This document shows positions 5,443 through 15,043 of a stretch of 64,000 bases of DNA, piece by piece. The translations under genes were made by a program, and so were the position numbers. Position 1 is the first letter of the stretch, and each line of letters begins with the position of its first letter. This stretch comes from Fidelibacterota bacterium (GTDB lineage: Bacteria; Fidelibacterota; Marinisomatia; Marinisomatales; TCS55). The notes beneath the pieces were generated by a model that was given only the letters and a program-made list of their open reading frames with translations, had not been told where the DNA came from and did not search any database. The stretch is from positions 464,606 through 528,605 of the forward strand of contig SCKN01000001.1 of assembly GCA_004124385.1 (NCBI GenBank). Direction: 5' to 3'.

Positions 5443-6624
5443 TTAATTTATAACAATCCATTCTGATTTAATTTTACCATTTTCTCCCGGCTCTGTCCAA
5501 GCAACAAAAACCATCCCGTTTGCCATTGCCAATTTAGGATAACCACTACCTCGACTCGAGCTAATGGTATACGATTTAAAAAAATCAACTGCACCCGTAT
5601 TGGAGTTTACAGTTTTCAATTCCAGTTTACCCGATTCCTCCCCTTCTGCCAACCAGCTTACTAATACATTTTCATCATCTAACCAAATGAGATCGGTGCG
5701 ACCAATAACAGAACCACCATCCAAACGAATTAGATTGCCAAAAGTCCGTCCACCATCATTTGAAAATGAAATATTTACTTGCGGTTTATTATCCGGAGCC
5801 GTGTACCAGGCAATAGCCACATTATCTACATTGGCAACCATGGCGGGTCCATTTACAGGACAACCGGGGACAATCCACCCGTCTTCATTGATGGGTCTGG
5901 GAAGTTGGTTATCGTTTATAAATGCCAATTGGATATTGCGCGTTTCATCTGCATAGCGGTCCCGAAAAGCCACCAATGGCCCCACACTCGTATTCACTGC
6001 CGATGTTGGGCAACATTCACACACCATATTATCCAGCATAATTTCCAATCCCAGTTCACCTTTTGGAATTATGGTAGTTGTATAAAGCCGCATAGCTCCA
6101 TCACCGTGATCATGCCCGCCAGATGCCATGGCACGTCCATCCAGCCAAATTAATCCTATAGATCCATTTAAATCATAAAAAGAAACAAACCCATGTTCTC
6201 CTTTTATCCCATCACGATGTGGAATAACTGGATCAGACCAAGCCTTTCCGCGGTTCGTAGATATGGACACTTTTACATCATAATCATACGTCCCTTCCCC
6301 ACTCATTTCCAGCCATGACACAGCAAGTGTATCGCCACCAGTATGATAAATCTGTGGTAAGTCTGCCCAGTTTTTGAAAAATCGATCACTGGTAACAATC
6401 GTATCTTTTTTTGTCCAGCCCTTATCGGTGAATTCAGACATAACAATGTGTTCACCGCCCTCATACCAAATCATGATAAATCCATCATCCGTTTGACAGA
6501 TATTGGGATAGGCGCTCCCAAGCGCTGTATCGGGGCTGGCAGGTGCACTAATTTCTCCGCAGGAAAAAAACAACCCCGCAAAAAGCAAGGTCGTTAAAAT
6601 TCGCTTGTTATTAATGACCACCAC
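5443..6624 (-). CDS. CECCP-type sialidase-fold (beta-propeller) lipoprotein
   Basis: 393 residues starting at GTG (6622-6624). The N-terminus has a lipobox, LLFAGLFFSC, so the mature protein is probably lipid-anchored at Cys22. The body has BNR/Asp-box-like repeats (STNRGKAWSDP, SNDGGRTFGN) typical of the six-bladed sialidase fold. It does not look like a true sialidase: no clear arginine triad is visible. It carries VCECCPTS (Cys202, 204, 205), PGCPVNGP (Cys255) and GGHDHGDG (His171, His173), a plausible metal site. The first two motifs recur in the paralogue at 7476-8957. The start overlaps the stop of the HMA lipoprotein by 14 bases, which points to translational coupling and a shared role in metal handling. 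Calling it a sialidase would be misleading. Confidence 0.75.
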   Translation of the reverse strand: MVVINNKRILTTLLFAGLFFSCGEISAPASPDTALGSAYPNICQTDDGFIMIWYEGGEHIVMSEFTDKGWTKKDTIVTSDRFFKNWADLPQIYHTGGDTLAVSWLEMSGEGTYDYDVKVSISTNRGKAWSDPVIPHRDGIKGEHGFVSFYDLNGSIGLIWLDGRAMASGGHDHGDGAMRLYTTTIIPKGELGLEIMLDNMVCECCPTSAVNTSVGPLVAFRDRYADETRNIQLAFINDNQLPRPINEDGWIVPGCPVNGPAMVANVDNVAIAWYTAPDNKPQVNISFSNDGGRTFGNLIRLDGGSVIGRTDLIWLDDENVLVSWLAEGEESGKLELKTVNSNTGAVDFFKSYTISSSRGSGYPKLAMANGMVFVAWTEPGENGKIKSEWIVIN

Positions 6625-6940
6625 TCAATTTACAACAACCGGGCAATGCTTCATAAGCTGCAGCATTTGCTTGCGTGTTATTGGCAGAATAGCCTAGAGC
6701 GGAAATGGCTTTTTCAATCGCTGATAAATCCACCAAACCTGCTTTGTATTCGATATGACCCACTTTCTTATCAAGATCTACATCAAAAGCAACTACACCA
6801 TCTAAAGCTTTTACACCTTCTTCAATGGTACTTTCGCACATTCCACATTGCATGGAAGTTAATTGGATATCTACACTCGTCGTGTCACCACCACATGCAA
6901 ATAATCCAAGAATCGATACTGTTAATATGAGATGTTTCAT
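6611..6940 (-). CDS. HMA-domain lipoprotein (metallochaperone-like)
   Basis: 109 residues. The signal peptide MKHLILTVSILGLFAC ends in a lipobox (Cys16). Next comes a heavy-metal-associated domain with the binding loop SMQCGMCEST (Cys32, Cys35) and the usual beta-alpha-beta-beta-alpha-beta pattern, ending GYSANN. The family binds Cu+ or similar soft metals through the two cysteines. It has an extra C-terminal PGCCKLSGGH (Cys102, Cys103, His109), which could be a second metal site. Most HMA chaperones are cytosolic, but this one is predicted to be outside the inner membrane. It overlaps the CECCP lipoprotein gene by 14 bases and sits one base from the YdjM-like gene. Confidence 0.85.
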   Translation of the reverse strand: MKHLILTVSILGLFACGGDTTSVDIQLTSMQCGMCESTIEEGVKALDGVVAFDVDLDKKVGHIEYKAGLVDLSAIEKAISALGYSANNTQANAAAYEALPGCCKLSGGH

Positions 6941-6941
6941 G

Positions 6942-7475
6942 TTATTTCCTTTGTTGTTTATAAATATTATAAATGATTAAAAATACAGCTAGAAAGTTCA
7001 CTCCAACTTCAAATCCAAACAATAATTTATTTTCCATATAGAATGACCAATATGGATTCATAAGCATTTCATATACTGAAACTTGCCCTTGGTCTGGTGA
7101 AATTGGATATAAATAGTAATCTGTTTTTAATAAAGGATAAAACCATTGTATTCCAACTGTCCTAGCAGTAATCCAATCCGTGAGCAGATGCATGAAAGCA
7201 CCACTGAAAACACCTAAAGCGATTAATGTATTTTTAGTCGGATAATATTTTCGTCCTAAAACATAGATTATTGAACAAGCTATTATCCAGAAAATAGGTG
7301 TATGTAATACTGAATGATGTCCGGCAACTGTAGGTGAAAAAACTCCATCTATATCCGGAAAAACAGAAAATGATATACACAGCCAAAGGAATAGCTTAAA
7401 GTAAGAAACTGAGTAACGGCTTTGTATAGCTGCACCAGCCAGATAGCCGTGCGCTGCATGGGAAATGATAAACAA
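6942..7475 (-). CDS. YdjM-like membrane-bound metal-dependent hydrolase family protein
   Basis: 177 residues with about four hydrophobic segments. The N-terminus ISHAAHGYLAG, the FPDIDGVFSP motif, the GHHSVLHTP motif and HLLTDWITA are the His/Asp signature blocks of the YdjM/DUF457 family (PF04307). These are inner-membrane proteins, called metal-dependent hydrolases from conserved residues; their reaction is not established. The start is TTG at 7473-7475, immediately after the stop of the upstream gene at 7476, and no ATG lies in frame near it. A stop-start abutment inside the metal island suggests co-expression. Confidence 0.75.
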   Translation of the reverse strand: MFIISHAAHGYLAGAAIQSRYSVSYFKLFLWLCISFSVFPDIDGVFSPTVAGHHSVLHTPIFWIIACSIIYVLGRKYYPTKNTLIALGVFSGAFMHLLTDWITARTVGIQWFYPLLKTDYYLYPISPDQGQVSVYEMLMNPYWSFYMENKLLFGFEVGVNFLAVFLIIYNIYKQQRK

Positions 7476-8957
7476 TTATTTCAGATAAAGGACTTTCCGT
7501 GTCTGCACACTATTGCCAGAAATAAGCTGTATAAAATACACTCCTGCAGAATAGTTCTTACCATTCCATGAAATTGAATGATTTCCAGATACATAATTCC
7601 CTAAAGAATGATGTTCTACTTCCCTTCCGGATATATCAATAACAGCTAATTCAATCTCGCTTGGACTTTCCAATCTAAAATCAATTGTTAGATTACTATT
7701 GAATGGATTGGGATATAATCCATGAATTTTAAATTCAGAAGGGTGAATATCATCTGTAATTCCTGCGTCTGGATCGTAGTTTGTAGTGAAATAGATATTC
7801 TGATCTGATCGATAATCTTCCCAGACAATATAAACAAAACTATCATCATCATCCATTCTAGGTGCTCGTTGAGTGACATCTTGTCCGTCATCATTCAGCA
7901 CTTGAATATTTGATAAAGCACTACTGCTTACATTCATGCCACCATAATAAATATCATTACCGCCACGTTGGTCTTCCCAAATCATATGAATCCAATTCCC
8001 ATTCGTGATGGCTGTATAAGGGTGATCTTGCCGAACATCATCAGCTGCATTAGGATCAGCCAATATACTATCTCCAAAAGCAACTGCATCATCGTGAGAC
8101 ACTTTCAAATACACTTTCGGAATATTATTTACTGCAACCATATAGGATAAAGCAACATTCTCATTCAATCGCGACATTCCGGGCCCAGAGCTGGGACAAT
8201 AATCAATTATAAATTGGTCAAAAGACATGCGCGTTAGACTCCCCCATTCAGTATCATTATCACCTGAAAAACTCGCAAACATATCACGGACATCGCTATC
8301 ATCATTTCTAAATCCAACCATTTTAGTGCCATCATTTAAAATAAGAATATCTGCTGGACAACACTCACATGGAATTGCTCCAGAATAATTATTAACAACC
8401 TCATCATCACTAAATGTTTGACCTGTATCACTGGATGCTATATGATAAATATGTTCAAACCTCAAAAAACGACGATTATACTGGAAATAAATAACATGAA
8501 TTTTTCCTGCTTCACTTGTCGTTATTTCCGGATAGAGATTGAATGATGAAACATCTCCAATAGGAGCTTCTTCTGTCCACGTAGTTCCACCATCTGTAGA
8601 TTGAGAATAATAAATATTAGTTTCATCATATCCATGACGAGAATCAGCCCAAATTGCATGGAGGATACCCCCAAATTCAGCAATTTTAGGACCGCTATAC
8701 ATGATATCACTTACATGACCACTTACAGTATTAATTTGAATTGGTGTTGAAAATAAATTACCATGGTCGGAGGAATTGGCATAAAATAGATTTTTGTTAT
8801 CATCATTATTGATCCAAACTACATGTATTGTGCCATTTCCATCTACGATGATATCAGGCATTTTATTATGGCTACCAGAATTTGCCGATACGAGTACATT
8901 GGCGCTAAAATCAGCCCAAAGAAAAGAAATCAAACCAAGTAACATTATTTTTTTCAT
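7476..8957 (-). CDS. CECCP-type beta-propeller protein with type IX-like sorting domain
   Basis: 493 residues. Signal peptide MKKIMLLGLISFLWA. Residues 20 to about 405 form BNR-like propeller repeats (STDGGTTWTEE, HVVWINNDDNKN, HMIWEDQRGGNDIYYGG). PCECCPAD (Cys197, 199, 200) and DYCPSSGPGM (Cys254) match in order and spacing the motifs of the lipoprotein at 5443-6624. The last 75 residues are a C-terminal sorting domain: LYPNPFNSN, ISGREVE, SAGVYFIQLISG and a final KVLYLK. Predicted to be secreted to or displayed on the cell surface, whereas its paralogue is a lipoprotein. It is the first gene of a same-strand run reaching 5443. Confidence 0.8.
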   Translation of the reverse strand: MKKIMLLGLISFLWADFSANVLVSANSGSHNKMPDIIVDGNGTIHVVWINNDDNKNLFYANSSDHGNLFSTPIQINTVSGHVSDIMYSGPKIAEFGGILHAIWADSRHGYDETNIYYSQSTDGGTTWTEEAPIGDVSSFNLYPEITTSEAGKIHVIYFQYNRRFLRFEHIYHIASSDTGQTFSDDEVVNNYSGAIPCECCPADILILNDGTKMVGFRNDDSDVRDMFASFSGDNDTEWGSLTRMSFDQFIIDYCPSSGPGMSRLNENVALSYMVAVNNIPKVYLKVSHDDAVAFGDSILADPNAADDVRQDHPYTAITNGNWIHMIWEDQRGGNDIYYGGMNVSSSALSNIQVLNDDGQDVTQRAPRMDDDDSFVYIVWEDYRSDQNIYFTTNYDPDAGITDDIHPSEFKIHGLYPNPFNSNLTIDFRLESPSEIELAVIDISGREVEHHSLGNYVSGNHSISWNGKNYSAGVYFIQLISGNSVQTRKVLYLK

Positions 8958-9137: not shown

Positions 9138-9941
9138 TCATTCTTTTTCATAAAAAGGAAACGTAATCAAATTCAGAATTCCCAGTTTATTTTGGTTTCG
9201 AAATTCTTTTAAACCTATCTCCATGTCCAGTTGTCCCAGCTTTGATGACTTCTTGTAAGTACCACATAAACGATCCCATAATGAGACAGAAAATCCATAA
9301 TTGGAGTTTGTTTCATCAACAATAGTAGAATGATGAATCCGATGCATATCGGGCGTTACAATTATATAGCGTAATAGTCTGTCAATTGTTTTGGGAATAA
9401 AAACATTGCCATGATTAAAAAGTGAGGTCGCATTCAGTATCATTTCGAAAATAACAACTGCCATTGGAGGTACACCTATCATAATAACAATTATGGATTT
9501 ATAAAAGAGTGAAAGGATTATTTCCAGTGGATGAAAGCGCAGCCCGGTGGAGACGTCGAAATCAAGATCAGCATGGTGGACGCTGTGAAGTTGCCATAAA
9601 AAAGGGACAGCATGGACAATTATGTGCTGCAAATAAATAGCGAAATCCAACACAATAACACTTACAGCTACTGCAAACCATGGACTAGTTTCAATATAAT
9701 TAAATAAACCCCAACCGTTTTCCCGGGCAAAAATGGCTACAGTGAAAACCATGGCTCCTACTGTTACTCTAACAATGACAGTGTTGAAGAAAATTAGACC
9801 TAAATTAGTAATCCAGCGCCGTAGTTTAGATTCAGATAGTTTTCTGCGGGGGTTTACTTTTTCCCACAGTGCCATCATTACAAATACTCCCAAGAAGATT
9901 CCGAGGCGGAGATAGGTTTCGCTCCATGATGCTTCTAACAT
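9138..9941 (-). CDS. fatty acid hydroxylase / sterol desaturase family membrane protein
   Basis: 267 residues with about four membrane segments. The di-iron histidine clusters of the family (PF04116) are present: HIIVH, HSVHH (in LWQLHSVHHADLDFDVSTG) and HRIHHS near the C-terminus. Members hydroxylate or desaturate lipids in the membrane using O2 and a bound diiron centre. The lipid substrate cannot be told from the sequence. It lies 36 bases downstream of the methyltransferase gene on the same strand, between two blocks of metal genes. Confidence 0.88.
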   Translation of the reverse strand: MLEASWSETYLRLGIFLGVFVMMALWEKVNPRRKLSESKLRRWITNLGLIFFNTVIVRVTVGAMVFTVAIFARENGWGLFNYIETSPWFAVAVSVIVLDFAIYLQHIIVHAVPFLWQLHSVHHADLDFDVSTGLRFHPLEIILSLFYKSIIVIMIGVPPMAVVIFEMILNATSLFNHGNVFIPKTIDRLLRYIIVTPDMHRIHHSTIVDETNSNYGFSVSLWDRLCGTYKKSSKLGQLDMEIGLKEFRNQNKLGILNLITFPFYEKE

Positions 9942-9977
9942 TGAGTGGCTACTTTTGTATTTCTCAAGAGTTGATTT

Positions 9978-10616
9978 TCATCTCGTAAAAACGGCTATCT
10001 GCCATATAAACTTTGTGGCATAAAATGTTCGCTGCAATCCATTCTTAATAATGATTTCTTCCACATCTTTTGTGGGATGAATGAATACCCGAAAGGGACT
10101 GCCCTTTATTTTGGGATATAAATTCATGATTGGTAGAAATAAACGCATCCACCAAATATCTCGCGGATAAATAACTGCGTATATTTTTCGAGCCAGTTTG
10201 GATGACAACCCTACCAATTTAGACATATTATCGTAACAGCAAATAACCTTATCTAAGGTGACGATATCAGCCAAGTCTTCGTTTGTGGCTATTATTGTGA
10301 AATCACCATGTTTAAAATTTACTTTATTTGTCCAACCCTTTTGCGCTGCTTCTTCCTTGGCAACATTAATATATGCTTCCGAGGCATCAATATTGGTTCC
10401 TTTGATCGCACCAGCTTTTAGTAAATCATTTTGAATGGCGCCAATGCCGCTGCCAATATCTAGAAAATCCAGACCTTGCACACCTAGTTTATGAATTGCA
10501 TCTAACAACATTTGAGTTGTTTTGGCGGGTCCTTTCTTAAGATATCGTTTTAATTCTCGACGGGCCGTTTTTTCATCAAACATTTTTTCGATACCCTGAC
10601 ATTGACAACAGCCCAT
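9978..10616 (-). CDS. class I SAM-dependent methyltransferase with N-terminal CCxC
   Basis: 212 residues. The Rossmann motif I LDFLDIGSGIGAIQ and the following acidic position in GTNIDASEAYINVAKEEA define a class I methyltransferase. HGDFTIIA and VTLDKVICCYDN are the next blocks. The protein starts MGCCQCQGIEKMFD: three cysteines in the first six residues ahead of a helix, which could hold a metal or a cluster. The methyl acceptor is unknown, and weak similarity to Mg-protoporphyrin methyltransferases is not enough to assign it. It starts 32 bases after the end of the copper ATPase gene and is probably in its transcript. Confidence 0.8.
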   Translation of the reverse strand: MGCCQCQGIEKMFDEKTARRELKRYLKKGPAKTTQMLLDAIHKLGVQGLDFLDIGSGIGAIQNDLLKAGAIKGTNIDASEAYINVAKEEAAQKGWTNKVNFKHGDFTIIATNEDLADIVTLDKVICCYDNMSKLVGLSSKLARKIYAVIYPRDIWWMRLFLPIMNLYPKIKGSPFRVFIHPTKDVEEIIIKNGLQRTFYATKFIWQIAVFTR

Positions 10617-10648
10617 CGTTATAATTCCTTCATAATATATAATTATGC

Positions 10649-13150
10649 TTACAGTGCCAATTTCCTCAACCGTAACGCATTTCCAATAACTGTTACCGAA
10701 CTTAAACTCATGGCAGCAGCGGCAATCATGGGACTAAGCAATAGTCCAAAAAACGGATACAGAATCCCGGCTGCAAGAGGCACACCTAAAGAATTGTAGG
10801 CAAACGCCCAAAATAGATTTTGTCTAATATTTTTCATGGTCGCCTTGCTCAATTGACGCCCGCGAACGATTCCCGACAAATCACCTTTTATTAAGGTCAT
10901 GTCGGCACTTTCCATAGCCACATCCGTTCCTGTTCCCATGGCGATTCCTACGTCTGCCAGAGCTAATGCAGGCGCATCGTTGATACCATCGCCGGCCATG
11001 GCAACGATTCTGCCTTCATCTTTTAATTTTTTTATAATTTCATATTTTTGATCTGGAAGTACGTCCGCTTTCACATTTTCAATGCCCAGTTTTTTTGCTA
11101 CAGCATTTGCTGTTTTTTTATTATCCCCGGTTAGCATAACGATGTGTAATCCTGCTTTTTTCAATTCTGTTATTGCACCGAGCGTTGATGCTTTAATTGG
11201 GTCTGTTACTCCTATAATTCCTACCGCTCTGGAATCAATTGAAATAAATACAACTGTTGTTCCTTCTTCCTGCATATTATTAGCTGAATCTGTCAATGTG
11301 TCAAAATCAACATTCATTTCCTGCATCCATTGGTGACTACCAATAGAGATTTCTTTTCCATCTACGATTCCACTTACTCCCTTTCCTGTAAAAGAATTGA
11401 AATTCGAACAGGATTCAATCGTTAAATCATTTTCCACTGCTTTAGAAATAATGGCTTCAGCTAAGGGATGTTCACTGGCTTTCTCCACACTGGCGGTCCA
11501 TTTTAATAATTCACTTTCGGAAACCGGATCAATAGATTGAATATGAATGACTTTTGGTTTGCCTTCAGTGAGTGTTCCTGTTTTATCCACCACAAGAGTA
11601 TCCACTCTTTCCATGGATTCCAGTACATTTGCGTTTTTTATTAATACGCCGACTGTGGCACCACGACCCATTCCCACCATGATGGACATGGGTGTAGCTA
11701 GCCCTAATGCACAGGGGCAGGCAATTATTAATACAGCCACCATATTTATAAGGGCAAATGCAAAACGAGGTTCAGGACCCCAAATTACCCAGATTATAAA
11801 TGTAAGAATACTGACTCCAACTACAGCAGGTACAAAGTAGGATGCCACTTTATCGGCTAAATTTTGAATAGGTGCCCGGCTCCGTTGAGCCTCATTAACC
11901 ATCTTCACTATTTGAGATAAAAGCGTTTCCTTGCCGACACGTTCAGCTTTCATCAAAAACGAACCTGTTCCGTTTACTGTAGATCCAATAACAGAATCGC
12001 CTTCTTTTTTCTCAACAGGCATGGATTCTCCAGTCACCATTGATTCGTCCATGAAACTCTGACCTTCCATCAGAATTCCGTCTACGGGAATTTTCTCTCC
12101 GGGACGCACTCTCAAAATATTTCCTTTTTGAATGTTTTCCAAAGGCACATCTTCTTCTCTACCATCTTCGTGAACCAACCGAGCCGTTTTTGAAGCCAGA
12201 CCTAAAAGTACTTTGATAGCACTACCCGTTTTATCTCTCGCCCGCAATTCCAATACCTGACCCATGAGAACCAATGCAATAATAACAGCAGCGGATTCAT
12301 AGTAAACAGGAATTGTTCCGCTTGCATTTTTTAACGCTTCAGGAAAAATAGCCGGAAACAGCGTTGCAATCACGCTGTAACCATAAGCTACACCTGTACC
12401 TATTGCAATCAACGTAAACATATTTAAATTTCGAGTTTTCAGGGACTTCCATCCCCGTACAAAGAAAGGTGCTCCGCCCCAAAAAACCACCGGTGTTGCC
12501 AATGCTAATTCTATCCATGTTTGCCAATGACCAAACATTCCACCCGTGAACATGCCGCCCATGGTAATAATCAACAACGGCAGCGCCAGAGCAGTACTGA
12601 TCCAAAATCGCTTTGTCATGTCAATCAATTCGGGATTTTCCTTATCTTCTAACGAAATTTCCATTGGCTCCAGAGCCATACCGCAAATGGGGCAATCTTC
12701 CAATTTATCTGAAATCACTTCAGGATGCATGGGACACGTATATTTTACATTTGCACCTTCCTGTATGACCGTTTTTTCCGGTTTTTTGTCGCTTAAATAG
12801 GATTCAGGATTTAAATTAAATTTTGTTTTGCAATGGGTGGAACAAAAATAATAAGCTGTCTCATTATAATTCGATTTTCCTGCAGCATTTTTCGGGTCAA
12901 CATTCATTCCACACACAGGATCTTTTTCCTGTTTAGTTTCATCCCTCTCACTACAGCAAGAAGATTTTTCATCAATTTCTTCCGTTTTTGTTTCCACAAA
13001 TTTTTCAGGATGCTTCATGAATAAATCATGACAATATTCTGCGCAGAAACCGTATTTAACACCTCCCCATTCAACGATGGAAACAGCCGTCCCTTCTGTG
13101 ACGGTCATGCCGCACACAGGGTCTTTGAATTCAAAACTGGAATCTATCAT
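10649..13150 (-). CDS. copA: Cu+-type P1B ATPase with two YHS domains and an HMBD
   Basis: 833 residues. Domains in order: YHS domain 1 (DPVCGMTV, residues 10-51); a spacer with a CC pair; YHS domain 2 (DPVCGMNV, 77-120); heavy-metal-binding domain YTCPMHPEV...[10 protein letters not shown] (137-163); then the ATPase core. The core has TGES (373-376), the membrane CPC motif (478-480), phosphorylated Asp522 in DKTGT, the HP motif (561-562) and [10 protein letters not shown]. The C-terminal membrane helices contain AYN and [16 protein letters not shown], the signature of the Cu+/Ag+ exporting subgroup. Usual CopA proteins have N-terminal HMA domains, which are absent here. HMA domains are instead encoded separately at 6611 and 14220. 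The likely role is copper or silver export from the cytosol. Confidence 0.95.
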
Positions 13151-13456: not shown

Positions 13457-14230
13457 CTAGAATACAAATCCAATCCCCGTATTTATGGTTATCCCCCGGG
13501 ATAATTGAGTGCTTTTTCCATTTTCTATTACAGGAAATTTCACTTCCAAGCGTACCATCATTTTATGACGGTAAGGCATTAACACAGGGCCACTTAAAAG
13601 AACGGATGAATCATCTTCCCACCGACCACTTACGTCCCAGATAAGAAAGATTCCTGTGTTTGTTTTATTATTATGATAAGGATGTATCCCTACATTAATG
13701 TCCAAACCTAGCTGTGAATTTTTATCATCATACACCCAGCCGAATACATCATACATTTGATAAAATGAAAATGATTCAAGACTATAGGTAAGGCTCACTC
13801 CTGCGCCAAGATGACCGGAATTAATTCCAGGATCTTTATTTAGGGGTAATCTAATTTGAGGAGTAAAACCAATGTTTTGTGTACTTCGATTGAAGTTACT
13901 ATATTTTTTCAAAGGGAGAGCCACGATTAAGTCACCCAATGAATTATCAATAGCAATAACATCTGCGTCCTTATCTTCAATTGAATGGTAAGGCAGTTTA
14001 AATGTAATCCGTTTTGAGCGATGCCAAGTATACACGCCCTCCAGCCAGACCGTTTGCTGGTAATAACTGGAAAGAATATCTTTATCATTAATCGTACGAT
14101 CTGATCCAAAGGATTCATACCGAACTTGGAAGCCATAGCCTCCACTCCAACGGGGAGCCATGTCCATAACGGGTTGATGTGCAAAAGCCACTACACTCAA
14201 GAAAAATAAGCTGATACATTTATTTTTCAT
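13457..14230 (-). CDS. outer-membrane beta-barrel protein of the metal island
   Basis: 257 residues from the ATG at 14228-14230; an in-frame TTG at 14245 would add five residues ahead of the signal peptide and is less likely. The signal peptide is MKNKCISLFFLSVVAFA, and the mature protein starts HQPVMDMAPRWSGGYGFQ. The remainder alternates amphipathic strands (GFTPQIRLPLN, GHLGAGVSLTYSLESF, MVRLEVKFPV) and ends in TGIGFVF with a terminal Phe, as outer-membrane barrels do. It resembles the putative transporter barrels (MetA-like) often found next to metal genes. The start overlaps the end of the HMA gene, implying co-translation. The substrate is unknown. Confidence 0.75.
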   Translation of the reverse strand: MKNKCISLFFLSVVAFAHQPVMDMAPRWSGGYGFQVRYESFGSDRTINDKDILSSYYQQTVWLEGVYTWHRSKRITFKLPYHSIEDKDADVIAIDNSLGDLIVALPLKKYSNFNRSTQNIGFTPQIRLPLNKDPGINSGHLGAGVSLTYSLESFSFYQMYDVFGWVYDDKNSQLGLDINVGIHPYHNNKTNTGIFLIWDVSGRWEDDSSVLLSGPVLMPYRHKMMVRLEVKFPVIENGKSTQLSRGITINTGIGFVF

Positions 14231-14615
14231 CTTTCTTGCTCTCAATCTTTCTTGTTTCTATCTTTTCTCCAGTTCTGTTCGTGAATACAGTTTTCACTTC
14301 GTAACCGGATTTAACGATTAGTTCGATTGCTTTATCAATATCAATATCTTTGTCTGCAGCTTCTGCAATGACAGCATATTGATATTCAACATTCACAAAA
14401 ACACCATCGATGTATTTTTTCTTATCAACATCTTTGAGAGATGAAAGACCACCCTGTAATCCTACTGCGCAGAAAGAACAAACAAGACCACTCACTTCAA
14501 GAATAACCTCATCTTTGTGAATATCTAACTTTTTTCCATAAAGTTCAATCGTTTGGGCACTTACAATTCCAATAAGTGTAATTAATAAAATAATTTGTTT
14601 ATATAAGTATTGCAT
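14220..14615 (-). CDS. exported HMA-domain protein
   Basis: 131 residues. The signal peptide ends at about residue 21 (GIVSAQ). The domain has the HMA layout with the loop VSGLVCSFCAVG (Cys46, Cys49), then DGVFVNVEYQYAVI and AIELIVKSGYEVK. This gives a CxxC soft-metal site, probably copper, in the periplasm. The tail (residues 113-131) is highly charged, rich in Lys and Glu. The gene overlaps the barrel gene by 11 bases. With the lipoprotein at 6611 it is one of two extracytoplasmic HMA proteins in this island. Confidence 0.85.
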   Translation of the reverse strand: MQYLYKQIILLITLIGIVSAQTIELYGKKLDIHKDEVILEVSGLVCSFCAVGLQGGLSSLKDVDKKKYIDGVFVNVEYQYAVIAEAADKDIDIDKAIELIVKSGYEVKTVFTNRTGEKIETRKIESKKDEK

Positions 14616-14683
14616 GACTAACTCCTAGTAATCGGTTTTACTGCCGCAACCAGAGGGCAGTATAATTTTGGATTAGGAGTTGT

Positions 14684-15043
14684 CTAAATCAGGAGGGACA
14701 GATTAAATGCTGGCGGCGGTTCAGCAAGTGGATGAATCTTAAAATAGTCAACTATATTCGTTTGAGTTATTTCAGTTTCTAAATCTATAAAAGAAATCTC
14801 AATTATAGATAATTCATTATCAATATATGTCTGGACGGATGGTCCGGAAATGATAGGAAGAAATACCACTGTAGCACAGTTGTTTCCCATAACAGAACAT
14901 TCTTTTTCCACAACTTCAATAGAACAACAGCTGACAATGTCTTCCTGACAACATTCCATATTGCAGTCAAAATGTAAAAAGGATGCTGAAAGCTGCCCGA
15001 TAAAAAGTGTAAGCAGGAAAAGGGCTGTAATTCGCTTATACAT
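14684..15043 (-). CDS. small Cys-rich secreted protein (HYC_CC_PP-like)
   Basis: 119 residues. The signal peptide ends near residue 20 (GQLSAS). The mature protein opens with FLHFDCNMECCQEDIVSCC (His24, Cys27, Cys31-32, Cys39-40), followed by Cys49 and Cys56, and ends with a proline patch (AEPPPAF, residues 108-113). This order (His-x-x-Cys, CC pairs, late PP) fits the small exported proteins called HYC_CC_PP in Bacteroidetes, which lie near copper genes. Eight possible soft-metal ligands suggest metal capture; the function is unproven. It is 68 bases upstream of the HMA gene and is the likely first gene of the island. Confidence 0.7.
   Translation of the reverse strand: MYKRITALFLLTLFIGQLSASFLHFDCNMECCQEDIVSCCSIEVVEKECSVMGNNCATVVFLPIISGPSVQTYIDNELSIIEISFIDLETEITQTNIVDYFKIHPLAEPPPAFNLSLLI

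Follow-up and report, generated by a model that had tools for sequence, protein, structure and literature searches.

Seven-bladed propellers labelled as sialidases form a widespread, apparently undescribed four-cysteine family with a genomic link to copper

Nitrous oxide reductase is a seven-bladed periplasmic copper propeller, and its propeller copper sites, like those of thiocyanate dehydrogenase, are His/Asp-based and not Cys4. PLL/PHL lectins and GH145 BT3686-type folds also consist of seven blades, and to our knowledge no CxCC ... CP site has been reported in them. Thiocyanate dehydrogenase is a seven-bladed propeller with copper in the periplasm (PMC6504805). Searches of the PDB found no solved homologue of the two propellers described here, P1 and P2, and no sequence match of thiocyanate dehydrogenase or nitrous oxide reductase to their family. 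Literature searches on CECCP, or on sialidase plus copper, found no paper describing such a family, for which we propose the name CxCC propeller.

Two propellers and an HMA lipoprotein in one island

We analysed a window of 64,000 nucleotides from a Fidelibacterota bacterium, which carries the following features.

5443..6624, minus strand: P1, a propeller with seven blades and a predicted lipoprotein, subfamily I (CxCC ... CPVNGP), 393 aa, GTG start
6010..6021, minus strand: codons of P1 Cys202-Glu-Cys204-Cys205, loop entering blade 4
5845..5862, minus strand: codons of P1 Cys255-Pro-Val-Asn-Gly-Pro260, loop entering blade 5
6611..6940, minus strand: HMA lipoprotein with MQCGMC (Cys32/35) and a GCC tail (Cys102/103); PF00403, 8.6e-12
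6942..7475, minus strand: membrane protein of the YdjM family (PF04307), found repeatedly beside the HMA and P1 genes
7476..8957, minus strand: P2, a secreted propeller with seven blades, subfamily II (CxCC ... CPSSGP), carrying a T9SS C-terminal domain, 493 aa
8358..8369, minus strand: codons of P2 Cys197-Glu-Cys199-Cys200
8181..8198, minus strand: codons of P2 Cys254-Pro-Ser-Ser-Gly-Pro259
7491..7718, minus strand: type IX sorting domain at the C-terminus of P2 (PF18962, E 1.6e-11; also TIGR04183)
10649..13150, minus strand: heavy-metal ATPase of the P1B type, containing one HMBD and two YHS domains
13457..14245, minus strand: exported protein with no Pfam match, conserved in the island of genome G199 and beside P1 in G194
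14220..14615, minus strand: HMA-like protein of divergent sequence (LVCSFC), seen repeatedly in P1/P2 islands
14684..15043, minus strand: small exported protein rich in Cys (CNMECC..CC), seen repeatedly in P1 islands

The first-pass annotation had described CECCP and CP-x-x-GP in both propellers, and the sequences agree with it in residue numbers and spacing: from the last Cys of CxCC, 50 residues lead to CPVNGP in P1 and 54 to CPSSGP in P2. That both reading frames run on the minus strand had not been stated there. The lipobox of P1 is loose (LFFSC). The type IX-like surface signal proposed for P2 was borne out, as P2 carries the Por_Secre_tail domain expected of T9SS cargo and the same genome encodes the core T9SS protein SprA (9.6e-172). 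The small lipoprotein likewise proved to have an HMA domain, as had been suggested from its CxxC and GCC...H tail; it scores 45.7 bits against a Pfam cut-off of 24.8, has the MxCxxC motif and ends in ...GCCKLSGGH. Its gene overlaps the start of P1 by 14 bp, in line with the proposed coupling. The genome encodes no other full HMA domain, and this is its sole Pfam HMA match over the cut-off. The P1B-type ATPase, together with region 9138-10616, is missing from the same island of a congener.

Conservation and predicted structure of the cysteine site

We then assessed the conservation of the motif. The pattern C.CC-x(45-62)-CP..[GS] occurred 0 times in 87,600 shuffles of the proteins studied, while homologues across many phyla keep the CxCC ... 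CP motif, which rules out a chance occurrence. All four cysteines are invariant in 74/74 aligned P1 relatives from many phyla, and 55 of these have no other cysteine beyond the signal region. Most P2 relatives also keep all four; some P2-like paralogues lack CxCC yet retain CP..GP. A tblastn match at E 2.4e-9 (residues 200-304 of P1) shows P1 to be a homologue of P2, with an alignment identity of 18% over the propeller, so the shared motif was inherited and retained rather than acquired by convergence. Five subfamilies were recognised, and P1 is 14-19% identical to the other four. An alignment of 19 sequences from the five showed only eight shared residues, namely the four Cys, Arg221, Pro256, Pro40 and Trp376. 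Subfamily I has numerous other invariants on the same face (Asp88, His144, Arg164, Arg223, Arg229, Arg309, Arg358 and Met178), and these resemble an enzyme pocket more than a simple metal store.

AlphaFold2 models of P1 (pLDDT 93) and P2 (pLDDT 88) are both seven-bladed, with seven A-B-C(-D) blade repeats each. The four cysteines of the models sit on one face in D-A loops of adjacent blades, and those of P2 occupy the same loops as in P1. In the P1 model, the D-A/B-C loop side holds 44 of the 51 near-invariant residues. From this arrangement we infer, as part of an explanation that we hold to be slightly favoured, that C-x-C-C and C-P form a four-thiolate site in which the thiols meet. Because the compartment is oxidising, two disulfides are also possible. 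His171 and His173, which had been put forward as possible additional ligands, were rejected, since they are not conserved and fall within residues 169-173 of the P1 model, where alone pLDDT drops below 50.

Both proteins thus have the defining features of the proposed family, a C-x-C-C followed about 50-60 residues on by C-P, in loops entering blades 4 and 5. These findings indicate that P1 and P2 are members of a widespread, apparently undescribed family of extracytoplasmic seven-bladed Cys4 propellers; the first-pass annotation, too, had thought an undescribed family likely. It had also expected a sialidase-like label to conceal the family, and relatives are indeed annotated as 'sialidase family protein'; at least several hundred species carry CxCC propeller genes under this label.

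Metal genes around the family

We examined the gene neighbourhoods of relatives in other genomes. An HMA lipoprotein lies directly upstream of P1 in 23/29 other Marinimicrobia loci, a count that takes in one HMA lipoprotein fused to another reading frame (L004). Copper or metal genes were found near all 17 plasmid relatives inspected, including those for multicopper oxidase, CusF, cupredoxin, CusA, CopC/CopD, Cu-ATPase, DUF326 and mer. The link to HMA proteins and copper genes reaches far beyond this genome, and a lack of metal-gene neighbours, which would have spoken against the original proposal, does not hold for Marinimicrobia or for any plasmid relative inspected. P2 also occurs beside metal genes: in genome G109 it adjoins a Cu-ATPase, with MCO/TolC near, and in G127 an HMA lipoprotein and a CopZ-like protein. 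Among 65 chromosomal loci outside Marinimicrobia, a copper gene lay within 3 kb in 10, compared with 2 at 4.5-8 kb, and TlpA/CcdA within 3 kb in 11, compared with 1 at 4.5-8 kb; 44 of the 65 had neither within 3 kb. Mercury, zinc or arsenic genes also occur in some islands. The family's metal link is real and leans to copper. Relatives in Gemmatimonadota often adjoin TlpA, and three also CcdA, which suggests that the propeller thiols must stay reduced.

The first-pass annotation had also suggested that the two propellers could work as a pair to move metal between the envelope and the surface, which is borne out only in part. P1 and P2 are close together in only four genomes (this one, G199, G018 and G194), and each also occurs alone, which weakens the idea of a fixed pair as the functional unit. 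A second, independent tandem, of a P1 type and a CGCC/CPMSS paralogue, exists in Blastocatellia.

Possible functions and comparison with known systems

The explanation towards which we lean, if only slightly, is that the P1/P2 propellers work outside the cytoplasm, where they would bind Cu(I) or, in wider terms, some soft metal and serve in its buffering, transfer or delivery. The family, its invariants, the loop positions in the models and the gene neighbourhoods were observed; Cu(I) binding and the direction of transfer are interpretation, to which we give the same slight preference. In this genome the adjacent HMA lipoprotein would hand copper to P1 in the envelope and P2 would take an equivalent site to the cell surface; the Gemmatimonadota relatives would depend on a TlpA/CcdA relay for reduced thiols. 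Points against this explanation are the 44 chromosomal loci with neither copper nor TlpA/CcdA genes, the oxidising compartment, the pocket-like invariants of subfamily I, the loss of CxCC in some P2-like paralogues and the mercury, zinc or arsenic genes of some islands. More tentatively, the widespread pseudo-sialidase propellers may be general extracytoplasmic Cu(I) carrier or cofactor-delivery proteins with an all-cysteine copper-thiolate centre, served by a dedicated HMA lipoprotein and TlpA/CcdA reductants and used in copper-resistance plasmids and in copper acquisition for cuproenzymes, possibly also by thiocyanate oxidisers and ammonia-oxidising archaea. In one such archaeon, Nitrososphaera viennensis, copper limitation up-regulates a cluster that includes a 'sialidase' (PMC7785015), and the copper enzyme thiocyanate dehydrogenase is co-induced with a 'BNR repeat' protein (PMC5744179), G372_RS0106285 of Thioalkalivibrio. 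Both transcriptome observations are unexplained, and the proposed copper role would give them a reading open to direct testing.

A copper- or thiol-dependent periplasmic enzyme, with the Cys4 as catalytic cofactor site and a small anionic substrate, is an unlikely alternative, although it would account for the large number of polar invariants that subfamily I has on a single face. Its putative pocket would comprise Asp88, His144, Arg164, Arg221, Arg229, Arg309 and Arg358, by analogy with thiocyanate dehydrogenase but with thiolate ligands. The plasmid operons also encode cytochromes c, cupredoxins and multicopper oxidases, which is consistent with such an enzyme, as is the co-induction of the candidate BNR-repeat gene with thiocyanate dehydrogenase and CopCD (PMC5744179). 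However, the polar invariants besides Arg221 are not common to all of subfamilies II-V and so cannot represent the common function.

Less likely still is a thiol-disulfide protein, in which CxCC and Cys255 would form disulfides and exchange them with TlpA/CcdA or DsbA; the link to copper would then stem from protection or repair of copper-damaged disulfides. A TlpA-like lipoprotein directly adjoins P1 in Gemmatimonadota with CcdA next, DsbA/PDI genes occur in several plasmid islands, and MsrB lies beside one P1. CxCC nevertheless differs from the thioredoxin-type CxxC, and the coupling to the HMA lipoprotein and the Cu-ATPase/Cus/CopC neighbours indicate metal over disulfide traffic; TlpA relays are also known to serve copper-site assembly. 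A glycan-active propeller of sialidase, rhamnosidase or lectin type, with structural disulfides and carried along in metal islands, is improbable, since its BNR_2 matches and its fold matches to PLL/PHL lectins, GH145 BT3686 and sialidases are outweighed by the missing [FY]R[IVL]P motif (0/74), a sialidase alignment limited to blades 2-3, seven blades, the metal genes near each of the plasmid relatives inspected and, within the window, the absence of other glycan genes adjoining either propeller.

Should the four cysteines bind Cu(I), as the reading of P1 and P2 as soft-metal-binding propellers would have it, a common part of extracytoplasmic copper handling in bacteria has been overlooked so far, and the combination of seven blades with an all-thiolate copper site would make these propellers copper proteins of a new kind. 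CopC, CusF, YcnI (DUF1775), Csp/DUF326 and cupredoxins share operons or islands with the new family; they have unrelated folds, and their sites are mostly His/Met-based except in the Cys-rich Csp type. PLL/PHL lectins and GH145 BT3686-type proteins gave the best E-value fold matches of P1 (TM 0.6) and the highest TM-scores of P2 (up to 0.66/0.77); identity is 12-15%, and the genomic setting is a different one. The 'PDIAV motif-containing lipoprotein' model NF053835 matches P2 and subfamily II below its threshold of 90 bits (P2 32.6, best relative 45.5) and does not match P1.

GH33 sialidases (BNR/Asp-box, six-bladed, e.g. P. gingivalis PG_0352) share Asp boxes, fold matches and a weak BNR_2 similarity with the new family. 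The BNR_2 score (PF13088) exceeds the cut-off of 31.4 bits in P2 (35.3) and in relatives and falls short of it in P1 (24.5). An HGF segment of its blade 3 aligns with the sialidase HGFGD region, and the family profile aligns with sialidases over blades 2-3 only. The N-terminal (F/Y)R-I-P triad arginine is absent in 74/74 P1 relatives, as the first-pass annotation had anticipated, and its position appears, from the adjoining alignment, to fall at the invariant Asp88 in NWADFP. A genuine sialidase was rejected, given the gene context, the number of blades and the lack of the FRIP motif. The CxCC propellers thus differ from GH33 sialidases in having seven blades in the models of P1 and P2 instead of six, no FRIP/RIP arginine motif, four invariant cysteines and copper-gene neighbours.

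Propeller genes and the family they define

P1 and P2 are genuine open reading frames, arranged with two other genes in the following order along the minus strand:

7476-8957, minus strand: propeller P2, first in order
6942-7475, minus strand: YdjM-family membrane protein, second, between P2 and the HMA lipoprotein
6611-6940, minus strand: HMA lipoprotein, third, before P1
5443-6624, minus strand: propeller P1, last of the four

The stop of the HMA lipoprotein gene and the start of P1 overlap by 14 bp, and the cysteine positions previously assigned to P1 and P2 were exact. Curated domain libraries identified a type IX sorting domain in P2, and because SprA is encoded in the same genome, secretion of P2 by the type IX route is plausible. 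The propellers themselves gave only sub-threshold or generic BNR matches in these libraries, and PGAP labels their relatives 'sialidase family protein'.

Whole-protein searches for P1 and P2 relatives, which are independent of the CxCC pattern (C-x-C-C), covered 199 genomes of the phylum. At E <= 1e-5, 36 of these genomes gave P1 relatives, a few fragments and P2-type matches being counted among them. In about 85,000 species genomes, a scan yielded at least 573 confirmed stretches that encode relatives; it used two search patterns, one containing CxCC, and was thus biased toward the motif, with CDCC members able to enter only through the other pattern, NWADFP. Among the matches listed, the 80 loci kept came from Marinimicrobia, Acidobacteriota, Gemmatimonadota, Bacteroidota, Ignavibacteria, KSB1, Gammaproteobacteria and Rhodobacterales.

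All 116 full-length members carried CxCC followed by CPVNGP, and the four cysteines were invariant across 74 aligned sequences. A second subfamily, typified by P2 (CPSSGP and close variants), occurred in 16 of the 199 genomes. Further types were a third in Blastocatellia and other Acidobacteriota (CPMSS/CPMSG/CPMAG), one in Cytophagales and other Bacteroidota (CPMDGG) and one in Methylomagnum (CPHCGG). P1 is 14-19% identical to the other four subfamilies, and in 19 sequences spanning all five, only Pro40, Cys202, Cys204, Cys205, Arg221, Cys255, Pro256 and Trp376 were invariant. As judged from these alignments, the conserved core of the family is its four-cysteine centre, the strongest single result of this analysis.

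A few divergent P2-like paralogues (L162:1312-2991, L166 and L167) have lost CxCC and kept the CP cysteine, which makes them natural controls for what the site does. In a Blastocatellia locus (L100:7938-10329), 14 bp separate a propeller of the P1 type from a tandem CGCC/CPMSS paralogue, an independent case in which two CxCC propellers are paired.

Predicted structure and relation to sialidases

AlphaFold2 produced confident models of both P1 (mean pLDDT 92.6, pTM 0.90) and P2 (mean pLDDT 88.3, pTM 0.89), each with seven blades in its strand list. The loop that joins strand D of blade 3 to strand A of blade 4 holds CxCC in both models, and the corresponding loop one blade further on, between strand D of blade 4 and strand A of blade 5, holds the CP cysteine. 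Because these loops share one face and lead into adjacent inner strands, the CxCC and CP cysteines are likely close together. The cysteine-loop face also held 44 of 51 near-invariant residues (Fisher p about 1e-6), the other seven including Asp-box residues.

Sequence and profile searches returned no solved homologue of the propellers. Foldseek matches, at 12-17% identity and TM about 0.5-0.66 of the query, were to PLL/PHL lectins with seven blades, to GH145 enzymes and to sialidases. Profile matches to sialidases were weak and confined to part of the propeller, and the sialidase FRIP motif was absent from all 74 aligned sequences.

Copper genes around the propellers

Of the 29 other Marinimicrobia loci, 23 encode an HMA lipoprotein (MQCxMC, CCK-type tail) immediately upstream of P1 and on its strand (22 separate matches plus L004, where HMA is listed as fused to another reading frame). 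Several of the remaining loci instead held a Cu-ATPase, a multicopper oxidase (MCO), a divergent HMA protein or P2. The HMA lipoprotein of the window is the sole PF00403 match above cut-off in its 2.09 Mb genome. In the genome G109, P2 is adjacent to a Cu-ATPase and has MCO and TolC in its vicinity; in G127 its neighbours are a CopZ-like protein and an HMA lipoprotein.

The same island in the congener G199 (L137) lacks the block at 9138-13150 of the window (fatty-acid/sterol hydroxylase, methyltransferase, Cu-ATPase), which is thus an insertion in the window genome or a deletion in G199. A 'sterol desaturase family' gene is also present in a Sulfitobacter metal island (L177). Two proteins encoded at 14220-15043, one HMA-like but divergent (LVCSFC) and the other small, exported and rich in cysteine, gave no Pfam match; both recur in P1 islands.

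Of 65 chromosomal loci outside Marinimicrobia, 10 had a copper gene within 3 kb, versus 2 in a 4.5-8 kb control band, and 11 had TlpA/CcdA-type genes, versus 1. The metal-gene link is clear, yet not universal, since 44 of the 65 had neither. In Gemmatimonadota, the order CxCC propeller (P1 relative), TlpA-like lipoprotein, CcdA recurred (L084:9209-10434, L112:6426-7750, L135:2369-3632). The protein encoded at L132:9201-9779 joins an HMA-like N-terminus (CSRC) to an AraC-type DNA-binding domain and is possibly a metal-sensing regulator; its gene lies beside those of a multicopper oxidase and a P1 relative.

Copper or metal genes accompanied the propeller in all 17 plasmid loci inspected, which are non-independent, several sharing one Rhodobacterales operon, and represent about six distinct arrangements. 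Examples were TolC-MCO-CusF-plastocyanin-cytochrome c-P1-CusA (Sulfitobacter), MCO-propeller-RND-TolC (Runella) and Cu-ATPases (Adhaeribacter). In Methylomagnum (L146:7827-9385), a divergent CTCC ... CPHCGG member is directly followed by copC, with amoCBA about 5 kb away. Two plasmid islands also carried mer genes, and on one Spirosoma plasmid the metal link consisted only of an adjacent DUF326 (Csp-type) gene.

Proposed function

The extracytoplasmic location of the predicted thiolate site, the coupling to the HMA lipoprotein and the surrounding copper genes are most simply read as those of a protein that carries or buffers Cu(I). The site would consist of four cysteines and one arginine, the HMA lipoprotein would pass Cu(I) to P1, and TlpA/CcdA, where present, would keep the thiols reduced. 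Two rivals to this carrier or buffer role are retained: an enzyme, for which subfamily I would offer a broad polar pocket, and disulfides at the cysteine site, which the extracytoplasmic compartment would allow. The first-pass annotation, which noted the paired cysteine motifs and proposed a metal-binding family, was confirmed in its observation and supported in part in its interpretation.

Our literature search found no description of the CxCC propeller family. Two papers report unexplained co-occurrences, of an N. viennensis 'sialidase' with copper limitation (PMC7785015) and of a 'BNR repeat' protein with thiocyanate dehydrogenase (PMC5744179); the family might explain both, and these proteins are candidate members.
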